64,000 nucleotides of DNA, taken from the NCBI RefSeq assembly GCF_000003815.2, contig NC_049986.1:12492089-12556088 (forward strand), given 5' to 3'. The DNA comes from Branchiostoma floridae (lineage: Eukaryota > Chordata > Leptocardii > Amphioxiformes > Branchiostomatidae). The notes below the pieces were generated by a model. The model had not been told where the DNA came from, made no database searches, and saw only the letters and a program-made list of their open reading frames with translations. A program made the translations under genes and the position numbers. Position 1 is the stretch's first letter. The number at the start of each line of letters is the position of its first letter. Shown in pieces: positions 2,193 through 61,385 of the stretch.

Positions 2193-5100
2193 ATGGCGTT
2201 TGGTGCGTTGACTGAAGAAGAGCAAAATCTTCAAAAGAAGTACGCTTTGCTCCGGAAGAAGGTTTGTCCAAGATTCTTAATCTTAGCCTTTTACATATAT
2301 CAAGGAGCTTTTATCTGATAAAAGCTCCTTGCATATATGTAACGTTATAATTTGAATATCTAGCAAAAGCTCCTTGATTCTAGGGAGTAGCTACAATATG
2401 ACTGTATAATCAAGAGGCCCAAGTTAAAGAGTCGCTTCATCCCAACGTCAATTTGAAGAATCATAAATATTGATTACGTGTTTTACAAAGCATGCAATAG
2501 ATTTGTTTAGCAAGTGTATCTTAATCATACGCATACAAAGGGATATCGGACACTTCAACCCTTTATCTACTCGGCCCATGGCAAATCAGACCAACTCGGC
2601 CCAACACCCTGGTCAGCTTGGCCCAACACACAAACCATAAACCTGTAACAGTGGTGTTCAAGGACTGCTAAACCGAAGACGCCTAACGGCTTAAGCCATT
2701 TGGCCGAACGGTTTGCACGTTCGATTTGTGATCCGGCCGCCCGGGTTCGGCGCGGGTTCGAATCCCGGGAGTCGGGGTGTTGTTTCTTTCTGTTCTTACT
2801 CGCCCCTCTGGTTGTTTCACTGGTTCCCACGCCGGCCCTGTGATTAACAGGCTAGTATGTGCCACACAGGGATGTCGATCTCGGAGATTCGAGGACGAAT
2901 CTTGAAAAGAAAAGGGGGAGTAGTGTAACAGTGGTGTTCAAGGACTGCTAAACCGAAGACGCCTAACGGCTTAAGCCTTTATGGCCGAACGGTTTGCACG
3001 TTCGATTTGTGATCCGGCTGCCCGGGTTTGGCGCGGGTTCGAATCCCGGGAGTCGGGGTGTTGTTTCTTTCTGTTCTTACTCGCCCCTCTGGTTGTTTCA
3101 AACCCTTGAACCCTGTCGACCGAGTTGACAAAGGACCGAATCGTCCTGATCCCATTCCTCCTATTCACATGAATGTGTGTGAGGATGCTAGGCAGGTATT
3201 CACTACCATGTAGTAAATACACGTCTTTGCGTTTGGGTTCAGTAATGTTTTTGCGTTTGGTCAATCGTGTGTGAGAGATTAGGTCATCGGTGTGTAAAGT
3301 TATTTGTAAAGTTCTGAAATGGGTCATGTTTTTCTATGTCCAATTCTTTGCCAGTACTTGTAGTAAACTGTATTTATTTCTTAGATTAACATTTTCTTTT
3401 AACTTCATGCACAGAAGAAAGCTTTAGCTGCAAAGCAGAAGGCAGAAGTACAACAGCAAACCAGTACCAAAAGGGGTAAATATTAATATGTCCTTTTCAA
3501 CACACTGAATTTTCCACTATCTAATCAGTCTAAACTGATAGTCAATAATGAAAATATCCTATTGACAGGAACATCTTTTCATTATTGCAACAAAAAATCT
3601 TGTTGACAGGAACATTCTGTTAATTACTACACAGTGCAAAGAATATTCTTATCAATTGCAATTCAGCCCTTGGGCTGCAACACTGCCAACAGTTTTTTTC
3701 TAAATCTAATAAACCATTTCTCTCTCTCTCTCTTTATTATGGACTGTAATCCTTTCAATAGCCTGAACCATTTTCATGATAGTTTTATTTCTATTTCATA
3801 AATTGGTGGGGTGTTACACCTAAGGGTGGTTATACTCGGTATATAGATATAGAATTTTGAAACTATGATATATGAGAATGCAATATTTAGGCCAATGTTT
3901 GTGTCTGTTTGTAGCTGCTGCAGAAGACCAGAAGATAGAAGCACCCGTCAATGCTGAGGAGGCCACAGAGAGGGCCAAGAAACTCATCAAAGCTGGGGTA
4001 TGACCTGGCACCTCATAACTTCATATTTCATTATTATTTACATGGCATTTATCTGGAAATATTCTTTTCTTTCTCAGTTACAAATATCACATGTTATACA
4101 TGTAGTAGTCATTTAATGGAACAGCCTGGATATAGTCAAATTCCTCATTTATGCAAATTAGGTTACACTTTTTATACTTAATATTTTATCTATTTGAAGC
4201 ACCACTTAAGCTATCTACAATGTACGTACCAAAAATCATGATGATCCATCCATTCCTCCTTAAGTTATTTCCATTTAATGTGTGACACTAATGCCCCTGC
4301 AGTTCCAAAACAAGATGCTAGTGGGCCCAAACCTACACCACTTACTCTCAACCCCCAAAAAGACAAAAGATGATTATATGTAACTTTATAAAGCATTCCA
4401 TGAATAGTATCATTAGGTTGGTAACTGGTAAGTCACTTGATAACAAGACAATTTGAACACATGTATTACTGTTTGTCACCTTCTTCAGGGAAATATAATG
4501 ATTGTGTACAAAACTGTGTTGTATTCATCAGTGTTGTAGAAATATTGAATGGTGTTGTATTGGTTGTCTTACATTATGTAACTTTTCCTTTGCTCATTTT
4601 AGGCCATCAAAGTAAAAACTGATAATAAAGACACCGGCTTCAAAAGGATTCGAAAGATGAAGGTGAGATGAACTAGTCTACTGTATATGACAACTACTGT
4701 AACCAACCCAAACATAAAATACTTAGTAGATACCAGGTTGGAAATTTAACTTGCTTTCTATTTTCAAAGTTAATTTGGTAGTGACAATTCAATGTAACTG
4801 TTGATACTATAATAGTAGTACTAGTATTTATTTATTTATTCAGCTGTTTACAAACAGCCAAGGCTGCCCAACTAGCCATAGGCTATTGCCAAGGGCTAAC
4901 CCTGGGAAAGAAGAATACGTGTTATATATAAAGTCACGCAATAAACATTATTAATATAAAATCACTAGCATTAACTTAGAAGCAAATGGTTACAAATATT
5001 ATCACATATAAAATGTATATGCATACTGCAATAAACATTATTAAATATAAAATCACTATCACAATCTGTACATGGAAAATCACAGAGTACTAGTATTAAT

Positions 5101-21983: not shown

Positions 21984-24320
21984 TATTTTATTCATGTAGT
22001 CCCCGCGGAAGTAAAGAGAACGTAAGCAATCCAATTAAGAACAGGTGAAACCTGACAGGTGATAATTAGGGATGCCTCGTATGTATTTAAGCGAGAAGAA
22101 CACGCATACACGAGGCAGATACGAACGTTCGTCACCGGACGAAGGAAGCGCGAGGAAAGCAGCAAGGTTTAACGACCTCGATGCCAAGGGTATACCACCA
22201 CCCATCCTGGCCTGACGCGGCTAAGGGACAAGTAGAAGACTTTTCGGTTCGGTTTGCAAAGCCGCACAGTGCCTGGAAACTTGCTGCCGCCACGGATAGC
22301 GACAGTCCACCAGCCGAGCCGCGTCAGGGCCTTGGGGGAAGAATTTGCGGCAGGTGAACGGAGTTTCTGGCGTAGAATTGAGCGCTGCAAGTATTGGACA
22401 TTTTCTGATTGTTTAGTTGCTCTCCATGTTTGCTTTTTGCTATAAGGGCCTTGGTACGAGTATTGCACTGAATTGACCATATGTACTGCAAATTTGGACT
22501 GGAAGACGGTAATTAACATAACAATCTTGGAACGGAAGGAATTTGGCCACGTAGTTTATACCGATAAGAATTTGGCAATGGAATGGAAGCAATTGGCCAC
22601 GTAATTTTTAACCTGGACGGGGAGTATTGATGTAGACAATGTGGCAATGGAAGGAATTCGGCCATGGAATGGATTGGAATTTGGGCCATGTAATTGAAGG
22701 AATTCGGCCACGGAATGGATTGGAATTTGGCCATGTAATTGAAGGAATTCGGCCACGGAATGGATTAGAATTTGGCCATGTAATTGAAGGAATTCGGCCA
22801 CGGAATGGATTAGAATTTGGCCATGTAATTGAAGGAATTCGGCCACGGAATGGATTAGAATTTGGCCATGTAATTGAAGGAATTTGGCCATGGAATGGAA
22901 TGGAATATGGCCATGTAATGGAAAGAAGTTGGCCAAGGAAGGGAAGGAATTTGGCCATGGAAGTTGTAATCTGGACGAACCAGGTATATGTAAATAATAG
23001 GGTAACGGGAGTAATTTGGCCATGGAATGGAAGGAATTCGGCCATGTAATGTGTAACATGAACTGGGAGTCAGGTAATGAGGAACACAAAATGGAAGGAA
23101 TTTACCTATGGAATGGAAAGATTTTGTTCACGTAATTTGTAAGTTTGGTCTTAGAGCACGGTATGAATGAAAACTATGGTGGAATGGAAGTAGTAAATTC
23201 ACATGTTATTGAAAAAAAAAAGTGGCATTTGGTTGTGGTGGATTAATGGTACAATAATTACAATGAGTTGCTAAACATTGCTCGAAGAGGTACCATAAGA
23301 ACAAATTCGGAAGTTTCAATCCCTTGTGTTGCTATGGTTACTTTGACATGAAAGGGAGCAAGTGTATCGCTACAGTTGACATTGCTTATGCAAAGCTGGC
23401 AAGTTCCTTCAACAGGCGAAGATGTTGCCGTCTCACTGTACATGTGATGTTGTGTTGAGTGCTAGTTGACATACGGCGGTACAGAATAGAAATCTCAGAC
23501 TATGTAAATTAGAAAGACGGGTTCATGATGATTCCTTTTCGCACTTAGGGGAGGTAGTCATGCACTCTGGCGACCAGGTCATTCTGAGCCTCAGTACCTG
23601 GGGTGCTGACACGCCTCCTCTCCTCCAAATTTTGTTTCATGCTCGTTAATACTAGGTGATGGTTACGTCACCGGGATGAAATATCACGTTGGGATATATG
23701 GAGTAGTAGACCCTAACCAAAATCACGGGCACCTCTCCCTGCCACCCGTTAAATAGATTTGGAGGGGGAGGCGTGTCAGCGCCACAGGAGAGGCGGAGTT
23801 TGTGACAAACAACACATATACGGCGAATATATATAGGATGTAATACTCTGTTGAGAGAAGGGTAGGCACAGGCCCTGACACTGTGGAGAGGATGAAGAGT
23901 GACAGTTAAAATCTTAATTTTAAAGTTGAAATTTGAACAAGGTTGTTTGTCAAAACTGTTACAGGTACACGTTGTGTTGTCCTGATTATGCAACACCGCG
24001 ACATTTGAGTAGAGAAAGGTTTGGGGAAATCGGGAAGGTTTGGGAGGATAAGACAGAGTAAGGCAAGGATAAGGTTTGGGAAATTATAAGGTTTGGGGAT
24101 TGGAGAATGATATGAGGTTTGGGGAAAAGGAGAAGGAGGGGATAATATTCGGGGTGTAAGGAGAGGTGATTTGGGTGTCACCGAAAGAGAGGTCCTAGGG
24201 AAGAGGAAAGACGAACGACGTGCAGAAACGTCCCACTTACACCCAATATCATTCCCCATACCTAACATGTGAGATGTCTTCTGTACTGTAGCGGAGGACT
24301 ACATGATTGAGATACAGTTA
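21984..24320. mobile_element. DNA transposon-like element, long copy (2.34 kb)
   Basis: The left end (21984-22131, 148 bp) and right end (24220-24320, 101 bp) each recur as near-identical copies in the abutting element at 24321-24741. The ends carry short inverted termini: CATGTAGTCCCCGCGG at left and GCGGAGGACTACATG at right. The left end has a TATTTAA box-like sequence. The interior holds the 45 bp minisatellite and a nested inverted repeat (about 23600-23632 and 23756-23786) but no transposase. It is probably non-autonomous. Confidence 0.6.
22640..22945. repeat. 45 bp minisatellite (GGAATT-GGCCA units)
   Basis: Five to six units of 45 bp (GAAGGAATTCGGCCACGGAA then tggattagaatttggccatg plus taatt) with weaker copies extending to about 22530 and 23120. 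Each unit is made of two similar halves. Because 45 is divisible by three, open frames run through it on both strands, producing repeated peptides; these are not convincing genes. Confidence 0.85.
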
Positions 24321-48400: not shown

Positions 48401-51400
48401 CACTACTGGACACATCAGTGCAACACTCTCCACACTTTGACTGGGTAGTGGCTCATATTGGGTAAGGATGATCCCTACTAATGTGGAGAAGTGACATAGA
48501 AGATGTTCTCTCTCCACAATGAAGTTGGCTTCAGAGTGAAGTTGTACTCCTAGTGCCATTTTACTACAGAGATCATGCAAGGCACCTAAAGTTTGTTAGT
48601 GAACCATGATTTTTTAGATATTGAAAACATACAATTTTTTTCAATCATGAAGGACAACATCAATTTTAAGGATAGTTGAGCTTTGTTCCAGGTATAGTGA
48701 AAACTCCATAAACACATACAATGTAGCTCACATGTATGTTATTTAAAAGTGAATGTACTCAATTCATTCAATGCAACATGTATCTTTTCTTTAACCTGTA
48801 TCATGCTCTACTATTCTCTTGCTCTAGCTGAAGTGGCCCTGTGTGACCCAAGGGCTATAGAGAAGGAGATTGATATCACCCTAAACACTGAAAGGTGTTG
48901 GAAGGGTTTTAACTCACTAGGATATTGTGTTCTGTTTAGGTCATCCTTCCCCAACACCATCATCACCCGGGTCCTGTCATGTGGTCTGAAGGACTTCTGC
49001 AGCCACAGCAGCAGCCAGGTGACGGAGAGCCACGTGCCCAAGCTGGCGTCTGTGGTGGGCATCCTGGGACACCTGGCCGCTCACCATGCACAGGACATCA
49101 GGGAGGCTCTGCTGCAGCTCTTCCATGTAGGGGCTGGCTAATGTTCTGTATTTTACTGCCTGATATACATGCAGTGAAAATCATGGCCTATATGACCACT
49201 CTTTTGGTCGTCCCTTAGTTGGTGATCCCTGTGTCAATCAATGATAGCATTGCAATTAGCTGTCCAACCAATGGGAGAGTGACTGTGTTTTTTTAATTTT
49301 TTTTTAATTCTCCTGTCGATTTGACAGATAAGCAGGCATTTGCTTGTTTGCCTGACCTGCACATGACTTTTTAAGGTGAAGGAGGGGTGTGCAATTCCTT
49401 CTCCACCCTCTCGTCTATTGGAGCAGTAAGTCTCACAGGGGCAACTGTATGCAACATGTGAGGCGGCTCCAGCAGATGCAGCTTTGTTGTTCGGAGTTTC
49501 CGTCTCCTAGGAGGACTTCCGACCAAGGATGTAAGGGGTTCCTCCTACCCCCGACTCGTGTCATGGCGGGTGCGTCATGCCCGAACGTACCCCTAAGGCC
49601 TGTCTCAGCCACAAAGGCCTGCCACTGCCACTAGCCGCAGCTAGATACTTATTTACACCTGAGTTAAGGGAGGAAAGTCGTGTTTGCCTTTCCCAAGGGC
49701 ACAAGATCGGTGGCACGGCAGGCGGGTGACACGGCAGGCGGATTCGAACCCGCCATCTCTCGGTCTTGAGCCGAACATGCTGCCACTGCGCCACGCGGTC
49801 CCACGGTAACTGTGTGTAACTTGTATTTTACAGGTCATCATTCATTGCAACTCTCTCTCTTCTTGAATATGTTTGGGATTTTTTTTCACAGGTTAGCCTA
49901 AGTGAGGGTAAACAGGAACAGTACACTGTGCCCTTCCTGCTGGAGCTGGCCACCATGTCTCCCATGCTACTCAGGGTCATCACAACTGAACTGGTAGACT
50001 CTTGTAAGTGATAATGTTCATCATACATACTTACTGCTTCATCTGCTTGTTACCAAGCACATAGTAAGATTATGGTACTTGGACACACCCACTAGCCCAA
50101 TGGCTGCATGGAAAGTATTCATAATCATTTATAGAGACATGAAATATCAAAAGTCGTTTTTTTTATAAGTAGATTCGTTTTCTTGTCACAGAGTTCTTAC
50201 TAACACGTAGAACTGCCAGGTAAGTAAGTCATACAGAGCATACCTTTAGCTATCTTGAGTTGAGCAGAAAAGATATTTAAATGATGTTTCTGTACCTTCC
50301 ACAGTGAGCGCTGATGTTCTAAACCAATTGGCAAGGCAGTTATCAAAAGGAAGGTCCAAGGCAGACATGGAAGGGTACGGATGAAATTCTCATATCAATG
50401 TCAAATTATTTCTTTAGACAACAATAGGGTGATCAAACCTTAGTATGAATGCTTTTCAGCACAAGGATGTGATGTTTTTATTGTTGATAACAATAATAAT
50501 GTTTTGCTGTCATGCAAAACCAGAGACAGAGCATATATGAATATTACCAGAAGTAGCATTTGTGCTGTGTGAATGTTGTTCAGCAACGGGGGCAGGGCAT
50601 ATGTGAATGTGTATGATAGACACAGCATGCATGTATGTGCATGGTTATATGTTGTTCAACACCAGGGGCAGACCATGTGCACATGTGTATGACAGAGATG
50701 CATGTAAGTGTGTATGGTAGGTGAATGTTTTTCAGTACAAAGGACAGGCATGTGTGAATGTGTATGATATAGAGATAGTATGTGAGTGGTAAGTGAATGT
50801 TGTTCAGCACCAAGGACAGGACATGTGGACATGTGTATGACAGAGATGCATGTAAGTGTGTATGGTAGGTGGATGTTTTTCAGTACTAAGGACAGGACAT
50901 GTGTGAATGTGTATGACAGAGAGAGAGTGTGTTGTAAGTGAATGTTGTTCAGCACCAAGGACAGGACATGTGTACATGTGTATGACAGAGATGCATGTAA
51001 GTATGTATGGTAGGTGAATGTTTTTCAGTACAAAGGACAGGCATGTGTGAATGTGTATGATATAGAGATAGTATATGAGTGGTAAGTGAATGTTGTTCAG
51101 CACCAAGGACAGGACATGTGGACATGTGTATGACAGAAATGCATGTAAGTGTGTATGGTAGGTGAATGTTTTTCAGTACTAAGTACAGGACATGTGTGAA
51201 TGTGTATGATAGAGATAGTGTGTGAGTGGTAATGAATGTTGTTCAGCACCAAGGACATGGCATGTGTGTACGTGTATGACAGAGAGAGGGTGTGTGGTAA
51301 GTGAATGTTGTTCAGCACCAGGGACAAGACATGTTTGGATGTGTATGAGAGGTTGTGTTTATGTTGTTCAGAACCAGAGACAGGACATGTTTGAAAATTT

Positions 51401-54400
51401 ATGATGGTGATAGTGTGTGTGGTAGGGGAATGTTGTTTAGCACCAGGGACAGAACCAGTTTGAATGTTAATCAGCTATGATCAGACAATTGTATACAGTA
51501 TGTGTGTGTGAGATTTGACTTGCTGCTCTCCTACTCTTCATGTCTATTGCTGTTACCATGAAGAATTGCCATGCAGAATTGACAACCATGTCATCTGATT
51601 CCAACCTCCAGACTAATATCCCTGGTTGTTCACCTCATCACCAAGACTGGCAGTGGCTGCCAAAAGGTCCTGAAGTTCCTACTGGATACTGCCTGTCCAA
51701 TGGATCAAAAAGGTAGGTGATATATATAACCATATGGTCCAGAAATATGCAGAATAAACTTTAAGTTTAAGGCTTATAAACGACTGGAAATTTTGTTTCA
51801 ACTGCTGGTTGTAAAATGTGTAAACTATTTGATTCAAACAATTGTGTTTTGAATAGGGTTGGGATCAGGATTATTGAAACTTGAATGTCTCTGCCTTCAG
51901 GTGAAGTGCCACTGGATCCTGCAGTGCAGCACACATGCACAGTTATTCTGGTATGTATAGTTTGTGTTGAGTTGTAAAGTCTAGATAAAGATTCTTATCT
52001 GCCTAAATGCTTAGGTCAGGTCTAGCCCTTTCCTGCTCTGATGCTAAAGAGGATCATTTTGAAAATATTTTCTTTCTTGATTTTAGGCACATCAAATCTA
52101 ATGTTGTACAAAAACATTAATTATAAGTCTGACTCTGTTGTACTCTACAGTAAGTCGTTGATCATGTACAACTGAACAGTATGACACTCACAGCAACAGA
52201 CTCTTTCTTCATCTTTTGCTACAGCTGTGCATCCTTAATCATCACTAACCCGTCTTGACATTAGTACCTTACTTTACATGTACCTCAGCCCCTTAGTAAC
52301 TCCTGTGCCTTTAGGGCACATTGGGCCTTCCACCCTGCCCAGTTCTAATCTTCTCTCTAGTACACTATTCTTTAAAGACTACCAACTATATTTCTTGTTG
52401 AAACTCTACTTTTCTGTTCCACTAGAACACCCTGGTATCAGACCTACAGAAGTTGGTGTTTGGCAGGGCCCAGCAGGGAGACATTACAGAGATCCTGTTC
52501 CTCTCAGAGCTGCAGGCACACAGGACACACTTGTGTCAGGAGATGCTATCGGTCAATGGTAACAGGTAAGAAACTGTCAATCACAAGAAAATACAGTGTA
52601 CATTTATATATGACATAGATGTTTGGGAAAGATGCAGTTAAGAAAGCTTGTGTAGTACAATGTATGTCTGCCTCAATATTAACTTTTTCCCCTGTACTAT
52701 ATTGTAAATTTTTGTAAAGACCCGAAAAGCTTGTACTGTTTTGTTTTCTTTTGCTTAGTATTGGTAAGTAATACATGAAGCTTACTGTATGACTGTGTTT
52801 GAGTCAGACAGTGGTGGCTGGTCCAGATCCTGAGGCTGCTGGGCTGTCACCTTGGTGAGAGTTGTGCTGCAGACATCGTGACCTTCAACCTCCAACATGC
52901 TCAGTCTCAACAACAGGTATTTATGTACACTTGTCACATATTCAACAGTCAATTGAACACATCCAGATACATAGTCACAGTCACATGTCTCACTACATGT
53001 GTGGGATGTTTGAAATTTCCCATCCAAAATTTCTTGTTTGAAAAGTTCTGAAACGTTTATTAGACCTGTTTAGCAGCATATTAATTTTGAGTACTTTTAG
53101 CAATTGGTGTTTGAAAGACGTACATGTTTGTACACTCTAAATGGAAGAGGCACATTTACTGGGTTCAACTTTAGTTGAGACTGCTCAACTGGTGCTTGGA
53201 TTAATGTATTCTTGTATGTTTTGGTATAGCTGAGTAGACACTTCATAGCATGTATAGTTTTTATTTTTGCAACATGTACATGTACATTTGTACATAAATT
53301 CAATCTGAATTCTGACTTTTAAAGTGGTCACATTGCACATTTTGTTTTCTGTGTAATTCTGATGTAGGAAACATAAACTTAGTAACTGATGATTGGCAAC
53401 CACTTTGGGGCATAACAGAAGAGCTGCATTGACATGTTTCCTTATCTTACCCATTGCACCACCTGGTACAGCTGGGGCTACTACTGGAGCTGCTGGAAGG
53501 GTTCCAGTGCTGCCTGCCTGACGTGACAGGTGCAGCTGTCTGCAGGTGCATGGACTCTCTACAGACAGGGACGCTCAACAACACACAGGTCAGTACTAGT
53601 CTATTATATGGACTCACTACAGACAGGCACCCTCAACAATACACAGGTGAACACTTTTGTACCAGTAGGTATACAATTTGGATATCTTAGATGCTTTCCT
53701 CAGGATGACTGCACCCATTGAACTCCACCCACCTTTGGACCCATCTTTACATGTATGTCATGCCTCCATAGGATGGCTACTACTAGTGCCTCACTACTTT
53801 TGCTCTGATATGATAACTTTTCATTATGTACACCACTATTTATTATCACATTTAATGCTGGACCATGCATGCATACACGTAACACACTTCACAACTTTGA
53901 TTGTAAAACAGGCAAAACACAAATACTGCCATCTTTCATGTATTTTGCAGGCAAGCAGACTGTTGGCGAATATTGTTCACCTGCTCAAGAGTGAGGACAT
54001 GGGAAAAAGGCATTTCAGGTAAATATTCCCTTTTAGGCCAAGTGCACATTTTATTTACTATTGTGGATGAAGGAAGGAAATGCCACCCTCAGTATGCATT
54101 AAAATGTGTCATCCCAGGCCCCTAGATATATATTTGTGTAGAAACGTTGTTTCCTGTTTCCAGCTACAAATATAACTATCATATGGTATCTTTAGTTATA
54201 TCATATCCTTAAAAATACAAACTTTCACATGAATTTGATCCTGTTTTTCTAAATGTATTTGATGTGTATAGGGACCAGAGTTAACTTCATGTTATTGAGT
54301 CAAACAAAATTTATTTGTTAACTTTCAGGTGGCAGCTACAGGAGGCCATCCTGCTGCACCTGCAGCCCATGACATCCCAGCTGGAGCACAGCTGCCTCCA

Positions 54401-59472: not shown

Positions 59473-61385
59473 CTAGATTATGACACAGCATGTTTTGTTA
59501 TGTTCAGGTAGGTAGTTGAAGAAGAAAATACAGTTTTTGCCTACATCAGACACAACAAGACTCCTTGGCGTACGGGTCACACAGCTTGGGTTTCCCAACC
59601 CATCATCTCTATCTGCGATAACCCCCACAAAATTGCAGAACCTGTCAAAGTACTGCAGCCTACCACTGCCCTGGTCAGGCACCACAAAATCATGGTCATG
59701 GGAGTCAATGTAGGTGCCTTGTCCAATAGGACCTTTGAACCTCCCGCCCCCTTGGCCCCACCCACCAATCACGTAAGCCAGACTAAAGTCTGCCCTGTAG
59801 AATAGCAGTTGCTTGGTCATGTTATTTGCAACAGAGAAATAACCAGGCCCAATAGGCTGCTTTGAAGGGGCCTCGCATTCAGTTGAGAGGCAAATTCTTG
59901 CAAAGATGTCTCCTTTTAGGTCAAACAGGACCAGCTCATTTTTGTCTGTAACACCCACTATGATTCCCTGAGCCTGTTCTAGGTATCGCACAATGGAAGG
60001 CTCTTTGAGCTGCCCTTTCCCAAGAGTTTTCAGAAACTTTCCCTTTTTCGTGAACAGTTTAGCAAGCTTCAGACCACTGTCTAGTACAACCATACGGTCT
60101 CTAGTAGGGTGCATAGAAAAACTGCATGGCTTGCTTCCGGTTTCCTCAGGAAGACTTACTGGAAAACTTCTTTTGAATTTACCTGTCAGGTCAAAGATTT
60201 GCATCCGGTGATTATTTTGGTCAAGAACAAAGAGACCTTTGTCTGTAGCAATGACAGCCACAGGCTGATCAAATTCCCCTTCCTCCTTTCCCTTGTGGCC
60301 AAATCGAACTATCTGAATAGGTTTAGGATAGATAGAACCTTTCTTCTTTTTTTCAGAAATGAATTCACCGGAGGTTTCACTGTCGTTAGCAATGTCCATG
60401 CTACATTCAATCTCCTCTTCCTCTACATCACTGGCTTTACCATCCTCAGTAGTGACACTGCCCAAACTGTAAGAAGCGTTGGGAGAAGCTGGCACAAAAG
60501 TTAGCATCGGGGCAAGCACCTTTTCCTCATCCTTACTTAACACCCCAAGCTCTTTCAAGGCTTCTATACATGACAGANNNNNNNNNNNNNNNNNNNNNNN
60601 NNNNNNNNNNNNNNNNNNNNNNNNNNNNNNNNNNNNNNNNNNNNNNNNNNNNNNNNNNNNNNNNNNNNNNNNNNNNNGTCATCAGAAAGCACAGAGATGT
60701 TGTCCCTACACTGTTTCTCTATCTGCTTGATCAAAGCATCTCTCTGATTCTTCATACTCTCTTCCAACCTCACTATGCTCTCAGTCGTAGCTTGGATCAC
60801 ATCTTGTATAACAGTTTGCATGTTGGTCTCAATGCTGGACACTGCCTCTCTGATATACTGAGGTTTCTCTCCTAGTGCTGTCAACTTCTTTTTGGCCTGA
60901 CTCACTAGCTGGACTAACTCTTCCTCTTTGCCTGGCATTATGTCTTGCAGGCGTTTTGTCTTGTGTTCGTTATGATCTGTGAAGAGACAGTCTTCACATA
61001 TCGGAACACTGTGGGTTTCACAGAAGTACCTCATTTCTTTACTTGGATGTACTGGGCATGTTCTGTCATCCTTAAAACTACAGTCAGCAGTAGTCTCAGA
61101 CTCAGGCGTTATGTCGACAAGCTTTTGGGCACTTTCCATTAGATTTCTGATGACAAAGTTTGTCCCGAAGGCTGTAACCCCCCCACGAGGGACAGACACT
61201 TGAAGCCTGCACAGTGGACATGTAATGCGTGACCTGTTCCCTACACAATCCTTCAAACAATCTTTACAAAATGTGTGGTGGCATGGTAGACTCTTAGGGT
61301 CATTATATGTGTTAAGACAAATGCTACATGTTATTATGCTAATGTCTGCTGCAATGTAGTGCCTTTCCAGTGGCCCTGCTGCCAT
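59473..61385 (-). CDS. TRIM-NHL protein (RING, B-box, coiled coil, NHL repeats), apparently intronless, broken by a sequence gap
   Basis: Reading from 61385, the RING finger is at residues 20-59 (Cys 20, 23, 35, His 37, Cys 40, 43, 56, 59). A B-box 2 follows at 110-141 (CPVH...CETH...CEDC...DHNEH), then a coiled coil. After the gap the frame resumes at 60577 (LSCIEALKELG) through an acidic linker to an NHL beta-propeller (FDQPVAVIATDKGLFVLDQN, HRMQIFD, GRLQYFD, SLVVSD) and a stop at 59473. TRIM-NHL proteins are cytoplasmic E3 ubiquitin ligases and RNA-binding regulators (TRIM2/3/56/71 relatives). The N run is exactly 100 bases and would shift the frame; the missing length must leave remainder 2 on division by 3, so 100 is a placeholder. 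Amphioxus has many such genes, so orthology to one vertebrate member is not claimed. It faces INTS5 tail to tail. Confidence 0.88.
60578..60677. other. Assembly gap (100 N)
   Basis: One hundred consecutive N lie inside the coiled-coil coding part of the TRIM gene. The flanking frames do not agree with a length of 100. Confidence 0.99.

Follow-up and report, generated by a model that had tools for sequence, protein, structure and literature searches.

What kind of mobile element occupies positions 2644 to 3100 of the 64,000-nucleotide stretch of Branchiostoma floridae DNA analysed here (contig NC_049986.1, positions 12,492,089 to 12,556,088 of the forward strand; hereafter the window), and how could an element of 457 bp with no coding capacity move? 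A first-pass annotation, made from the sequence alone, had rightly recognised a terminal-repeat retrotransposon in miniature (TRIM) of Cassandra-like design, with a transfer RNA (tRNA)-like module in its long terminal repeats (LTRs). Our analysis identifies it as a tiny, protein-less TRIM of the Helenus kind (TRIMp3), the group of TRIMs with tRNA-like sequence in their LTRs that was named in 2024 (Kojima, 2024; PMC10886601), and we consider it quite probable that one Ty3/Gypsy family mobilises it in trans. What is new is the fossil record of TRIM movement preserved in the amphioxus genome as TRIM-Gypsy hybrids and LTR-tRNA fusions.

Structure of the miniature element

The element comprises the following features, given with window positions, strand and basis:

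2640..2643, no strand: left target duplication AACC (sequence)
2644..2819, + strand: 5' LTR, 176 bp, 97.7% identical to the 3' LTR
2701..2711, + strand: A box TGGCCGAACGG of the 5' LTR (pattern match; motif as given in PMC10886601)
2742..2760, + strand: two copies of CGGGTTCG, 11 bp apart, the likely source of a hairpin described earlier as variable-arm-like (sequence)
2755..2765, + strand: B box GGTTCGAATCC of the 5' LTR (pattern match)
2820..2923, + strand: interior, 104 bp, between the two LTRs
2821..2835, + strand: tRNA-Glu primer-binding site (15-base identity to the reverse complement of LTR-fused tRNA-Glu)
2888..2900, + strand: TTCGAGGACGAAT, resembling the 3' end of the Gypsy family, TTTGAGGACAAAT (sequence comparison)
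2904..2923, + strand: polypurine tract (sequence; the equivalent place in the Gypsy family holds GAGGGGGAGGTAG or GAGAGGGAGGTAG)
2924..3100, + strand: 3' LTR, 177 bp (sequence alignment)
2982..2992, + strand: A box of the 3' LTR (pattern match)
3036..3046, + strand: B box of the 3' LTR (pattern match)
3101..3104, no strand: right target duplication AACC (sequence)

Both LTRs start with TGTAAC and end with GTTTCA, and the primer site, TGGTTCCCACGCCGG, begins one base past the 5' LTR. The paired LTRs with TG...CA ends, the short interior, the TGG-initiated primer site, the polypurine tract and the AACC duplication that the first-pass annotation had reported are thus all confirmed, as are the A box and perfect B box of each LTR, which in the 5' LTR are separated by 43 bp. 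The element falls below the 1000-bp limit of Helenus, holds both primer site and polypurine tract between its LTRs, and carries the Helenus box A (TRGCY, YGG) and box B (GGTTC) motifs.

Copies, target duplications and subfamilies

The searched genome comprised 513,431,437 bases in 431 contigs, and the 457-bp element gave at least 46 matches when the best 40 of 1097 first-look candidates were scored. A 29-mer from the LTR, with up to two mismatches, was found at 432 places and one from the interior at 151, against none for either reversed-pattern control, so that a chance arrangement is ruled out; the 432 LTR matches overstate the number of insertions, since at 18 examined loci the sequence to the right is that of a single larger repeat. 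We examined 99 distinct loci (L009-L108 minus L048, which repeats L013), chosen as best-scoring copies and first-listed places, a sample that for this reason leans to young copies and low contig numbers. Sixteen were dropped for an incomplete LTR and eight for want of a full interior, leaving 75 complete pairs, of which seven, whose LTRs differ at 25-29 positions, were set aside as composite on account of the larger-repeat flank.

Exact 4-bp target duplications of the integrase type, and none longer, surround 59 of the remaining 68 pairs, as in animal Helenus, whereas shuffled flanks yield 1.4 on average and at most 9 (2000 shuffles). L046 is counted here as a miss, although the first locus set, which alone gave a duplication in 32/39, assigned it CAGT. 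These duplications bear on the idea that the repeats are two adjacent tRNA-derived short interspersed element (SINE) insertions, which would account for a tRNA-like module in each repeat. Such a pair should show a target duplication for each unit; instead a single duplication encloses the whole unit, with TG...CA ends and with primer site and polypurine tract between the repeats, and the same unit recurs in other copies. Because 59/68 copies carry one duplication around the whole, we regard the SINE pair as ruled out, with a negligible chance of being correct.

The amphioxus TRIM family is young: in the 59 duplicated copies the paired LTRs differ by 88 substitutions over 10,381 aligned positions, and 30 of them show no substitution at all (gaps excluded). 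When the 150 LTRs were grouped at 93%, 11 clusters resulted; only I (the window type, 116), II (19) and III (7) have more than one member. Among five subfamily representatives the interiors are 95-100% identical and the LTRs 67-97%. The LTRs agree at the 5' end and again from the anticodon-like region, or from the B box, to near the LTR end, and the part that differs between subfamilies is the one bearing the A box. Tandem arrays of three LTRs sharing two interiors were found at six loci (L010, L020, L024, L038, L092 and L100), all with a matching duplication at the outer ends.

A separate observation concerns the larger repeat, which carries the TRIM at a fixed site in 18 loci (L053, L056-L058, L061, L062, L064-L068, L081, L085, L089, L090, L102, L105 and L106). 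Its right flank is TTCCTATGAGAAATG and its left flank, in the 10 copies showing it, ATCGTTCC or nearly so; several copies combine LTRs of two subfamilies, and L065 holds a solo LTR only.

A host tRNA-Glu as primer

The primer site is kept elsewhere in the genome, being identical to that of the window element in 62 of the 75 complete copies, so that neither of the two outcomes named by the first-pass annotation as refuting it came about. A primer-site pattern excluding the TRIM context matched six genome places, at all of which it continues into a nearly entire tRNA in reverse complement; the six can be aligned with one another there, and ARAGORN called three as tRNA-Glu (CTC) and one as tRNA-Asp (L111), with no call for the other two. 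A pattern from the 3' half of tRNA-Glu then matched 59 places, 28 of which were inspected (7 in earlier loci and 21 sites in L146-L165). At 20 of these 28 a mature tRNA-Glu copy with CCA lies one base past an LTR or LTR-like end, a proportion that is not a random estimate because proximity to such LTRs was known beforehand for the 7 and for five of the fetched regions; among the remaining 16 sites, which were not preselected in this way, 8 are fusions. The partners are the TRIM or its subfamilies in 14 cases, Gypsy in four and a partial or unknown LTR in two:

TRIM subfamily I, mosaic or divergent relative: L038, L051, L150, L153, L154, L163, L165, L114
TRIM subfamily II: L050, L146, L148, L156
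TRIM subfamily III or mosaic: L147, L155
Gypsy LTR: L110, L112, L113, L149
Partial or unknown LTR: L157, L162

CCA is absent from the other eight sites, seven of them gene-like and one (L164) ambiguous, with an LTR-like stretch upstream. The fused copies span 52-72 of the 72 tRNA bases, except in L114, where an insertion disturbs the copy after 30 bases, and seven reach the tRNA 5' end (L149, L153, L154, L156, L157, L163 and L165). Beyond the tRNA copy, sequence resumes at the primer site (L038), the LTR end (L148), the interior (L147), an LTR of another subfamily (L050, L051) or the same LTR (L156, L163). Outer duplications were checked at the fusion loci whose far end was in view, and matched 4-bp duplications enclose the insertions at L154 (CATT), L148 (CATA), L038 (ATTT) and L050 (AAGT), as well as the Gypsy copy L110 (GTCC); at L114 only three of the four bases agree, which is no match.

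These fusions trace the primer of the TRIM directly to host tRNA-Glu. The earlier suggestion that the LTR module takes part in priming is therefore unsupported, as is self-priming by that module. The available text of PMC10886601 likewise reports no complementarity between tRNA-like module and primer site in Helenus, and the amphioxus tRNA-Glu copies agree. The usual primer site is not renewed from the tRNA as a rule, since 62 of the 75 complete copies have the form ACGCC (four have ACACC), whereas 43 of the 59 tRNA-Glu places would yield ACACC. Our reading of the fusions is that synthesis of plus-strand strong-stop DNA ran through the entire primer tRNA before jumping to another template.

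Two further tRNA copies lie beside inverted or more distant Helenus-like LTRs (L111, C15 near 566971; L109, C11 near 15070105) and hint at further related families.

A Ty3/Gypsy family joined to the TRIM

The Gypsy LTR found beside a tRNA copy at L110 is ~510 bp long (TGTAAC...TTTCA) and has at least 41 genome matches, with 40 of 103 candidates scored. Two copies with LTRs ~7.8 kb apart carry 4-bp duplications (CTGC and GAAT), the TGTAAC start, a tRNA-Glu primer site, TGGTTCCCACACCG, and a purine tract similar to that of the TRIM. Pfam searches with pieces of one copy matched, in the Ty3/Gypsy order, a protease-like domain (below the Pfam cut-off), reverse transcriptase, RNase H, the integrase zinc-binding domain and the integrase core; a fourth piece had no Pfam match. 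The 3' tail resembles that of the TRIM, with a score reached by none of 2000 shuffles, and the LTR has no A or B box on its + strand.

Six loci (C2, C19, C12, C7, C10 and C4) join the TRIM to this one family. At C2 (L130) and C19 a Gypsy LTR is followed by TRIM interior and TRIM LTR, joined at the primer site, and at C2 GGGT stands on both sides of the hybrid. This form is the expected product if, during plus-strand transfer, synthesis passes from one molecule to a second one packaged with it that has the same primer site. C12 and C7 have a common join, in which position 378 of the Gypsy LTR meets an inverted TRIM LTR over TGAAACA; C10 consists of a Gypsy LTR, an inverted TRIM and a Gypsy LTR lacking a few end bases; and at C4 Gypsy integrase coding sequence (translated by eye) is joined to TRIM interior. 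The six hybrid loci, the GGGT duplication and the shared primer suggest mobilisation by Gypsy, as described for animal Helenus, and make this family the likely helper of the TRIM.

The position-378 junction occurs at two chromosomal sites (L127 and L128), so that the chimera itself may have moved.

Several observations weigh against this interpretation. The Gypsy and TRIM LTRs have no significant similarity, the TRIM interior resembles the Gypsy element only in primer site and 3' tail and so is no shortened version of it, and the two primer sites differ at one of the first 14 positions. A matched duplication is established at C2 alone among the six hybrid loci, the outer duplication of C19 failing to match, and no matching outer duplication was found around the tRNA-bearing insertions L051, L147 (3/4 bases) and L156. 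With 40 of 103 candidates scored, a second Gypsy family could also act as helper. As to the boxes, three cluster representatives, those of II, III and the single-copy cluster L083_5, lack the strict A-box pattern. In subfamily I (56 loci) the boxes hold 4 variable sites where random windows hold 4.5, a difference that is not significant, perhaps owing to the youth of the copies. Transcription of the TRIM by RNA polymerase III (pol III), putatively from these boxes, is plausible. That hybrids with one Gypsy family exist despite the unlike LTRs, in turn, supports a trans-mobilisation that rests on the shared primer site and not on LTR homology.

Hybrids and fusions might instead have arisen after integration, by recombination or by insertion beside tRNA genes, and would then be uninformative about helper and primer. 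The five hybrid loci and several tRNA-bearing insertions at which no matched duplication was demonstrated would agree with such an origin, as would the presence of some TRIM copies within a larger amplified repeat. Against it stand GGGT on both sides of the C2 hybrid, the matching outer 4-bp duplications at five tRNA-bearing insertions, and the fusions themselves, which begin one base past the LTR and include the CCA that the seven gene-like sites lack. We therefore consider a post-integration origin improbable.

The tRNA-like module and pol III

ARAGORN found no tRNA in the window element, and Rfam (E up to 5, window positions 2400-3400) returned no tRNA or 5S ribosomal RNA (rRNA) match; it gave two weak partial transfer-messenger RNA matches on the T-arm and, beyond the element and on the opposite strand, a weak small nucleolar RNA match. 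With relaxed settings ARAGORN called a tRNA in one of 76 LTRs, a tRNA-Thr in the subfamily II LTR L091, so that the tRNA-like part is unlikely to be a functional tRNA, as in Helenus. The hairpin previously taken for a type II variable arm is present, and coincides with the CGGGTTCG copies at 2742-2749 and 2753-2760. The sister subfamily III lacks ~10 nt where the window LTR has CGGGTTCG twice, and the extra hairpin accordingly seems to stem from the T-arm, duplicated locally, and not to be the variable arm of a type II tRNA. The proposed origin from a type II tRNA is thus unsupported, given the duplicated arm and the tRNA-Thr call for the one sister LTR.

Elsewhere in the window (49728-49800) ARAGORN called a tRNA-Leu (caa) beside a 16-bp tandem repeat, with a 14-base T-arm match to the LTR; it is perhaps a pseudogene or part of a SINE.

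The TRIM could alternatively be an ordinary element transcribed by RNA polymerase II, its boxes being inactive remnants of a SINE or tRNA that the LTR had captured. The boxes of subfamily I, not significantly more conserved than random windows, the strict A box missing from II, III and L083_5, and the single tRNA call in 76 LTRs are all in keeping with this. So is the scarcity of runs of four T (T4), which is common to the Gypsy LTR: of the 82 runs in 150 LTRs, 78 lie within the 10-bp bin that ends at the A box, and one of 75 interiors has a run, but the Gypsy LTR is free of such runs on both strands, and we therefore dropped this scarcity as a sign of pol III. Relic boxes are harder to reconcile with a B-box pattern that every one of the 11 cluster representatives shows, one of them only 67% identical to the window LTR, or with the recurrence of the same design in six animal phyla, in fungi and in a plant, as listed in the available text of PMC10886601, and the copies may be too young to reveal constraint. 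We consider relic boxes a minority possibility. In the available text of PMC10886601 pol III transcription of published Helenus elements stands without demonstration, and the young amphioxus TRIM family makes the question accessible to experiment.

A model for TRIM movement

Under trans-mobilisation by Gypsy, the A and B boxes of the 5' LTR would direct pol III transcription of TRIM RNA, which would end in the 3' LTR and enter Gypsy particles, where Gypsy reverse transcriptase would extend tRNA-Glu at the TRIM primer site. The polypurine tract would prime the second strand, and Gypsy integrase would insert the resulting TRIM DNA. Occasional copying of the entire primer tRNA, followed by a jump over short homology, could generate both LTR-tRNA fusions and hybrids.

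Retroviral reverse transcriptases are known to stop at tRNA position 58. We lean slightly towards a stronger proposal, in which the Gypsy enzyme often reads through the whole primer tRNA, so that plus-strand strong-stop DNA would end in a tRNA copy extending past position 58 and be rescued by jumping, over short homology, to further molecules in the particle. If true, LTRs would be exchanged between a small element transcribed by pol III and a helper transcribed by pol II, tandem arrays would be seeded, and the tRNA-bearing LTR module would be reshuffled around an unchanging interior; the TRIM would thereby keep a natural record of particle co-occupants.

Other features

Tandem arrays lie at window positions 22646-22959 (45 bp units) and 50569-51467 (~148/76 bp units). 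Open frames at 59473-61385, interrupted by a run of N, resemble by eye a TRIM-NHL type protein, with a RING and B-box region followed by repeats. On the minus strand of L119 (2-1501) an open frame resembles, again by eye, the reverse transcriptase of a non-LTR element.

Comparison with known systems

The first-pass annotation was aware of no chordate TRIM family that bears a tRNA module and is well described. This gap is not real, because Helenus, defined by tRNA-like LTRs, already has chordate hosts in coelacanth, sterlet, paddlefish and zebrafish (PMC10886601). Neither Branchiostoma nor amphioxus nor lancelet is mentioned in its main text, Table 1 included, and a keyword search of the open-licence literature found neither the amphioxus TRIM family nor whole primer tRNAs inherited in LTR-element insertions. 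As far as their available text goes, PMC9587614, the one paper found to name both Branchiostoma and TRIM, deals with Kolobok DNA transposons, and the meeting report PMC12859917 merely cites Helenus.

The amphioxus TRIM fits Helenus, as far as the latter is described in the available text of PMC10886601, in every feature that could be checked: a length below 1 kb, boxes A and B in both LTRs, a primer site and polypurine tract, the 4-bp duplications of animal Helenus, an association with Gypsy, a mostly non-functional tRNA-like part, tandem arrays as known for zebrafish LTR-11_DR, and tRNA-Glu, which is among the primers of bivalve Helenus. It differs in that the helper link comes from physical hybrids, beyond primer-site similarity, and in its full-length primer tRNA copies, of which we found no mention in the same text. 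With Cassandra it shares a pol III module in the LTR, miniature size and tandem arrays with shared LTRs (PMC10886601, PMC7215508, available text); Cassandra, however, has a 5S rRNA module, of which Rfam found no trace in the window element (same search as above), lives in plants and has no helper indicated in those sources.

The complex LTR insertions of Triticeae (Sabot and Schulman, 2007; PMC1950507) likewise join parent elements fused by template switching during reverse transcription; these are plant elements, however, and the available text mentions no TRIM-helper pairs or copied primer tRNA. Yeast Ty3, finally, is also an LTR retrotransposon with a host tRNA primer, and the amphioxus insertions differ from it, as described in the available text of PMC5371799, in that part of them inherit whole tRNA copies.
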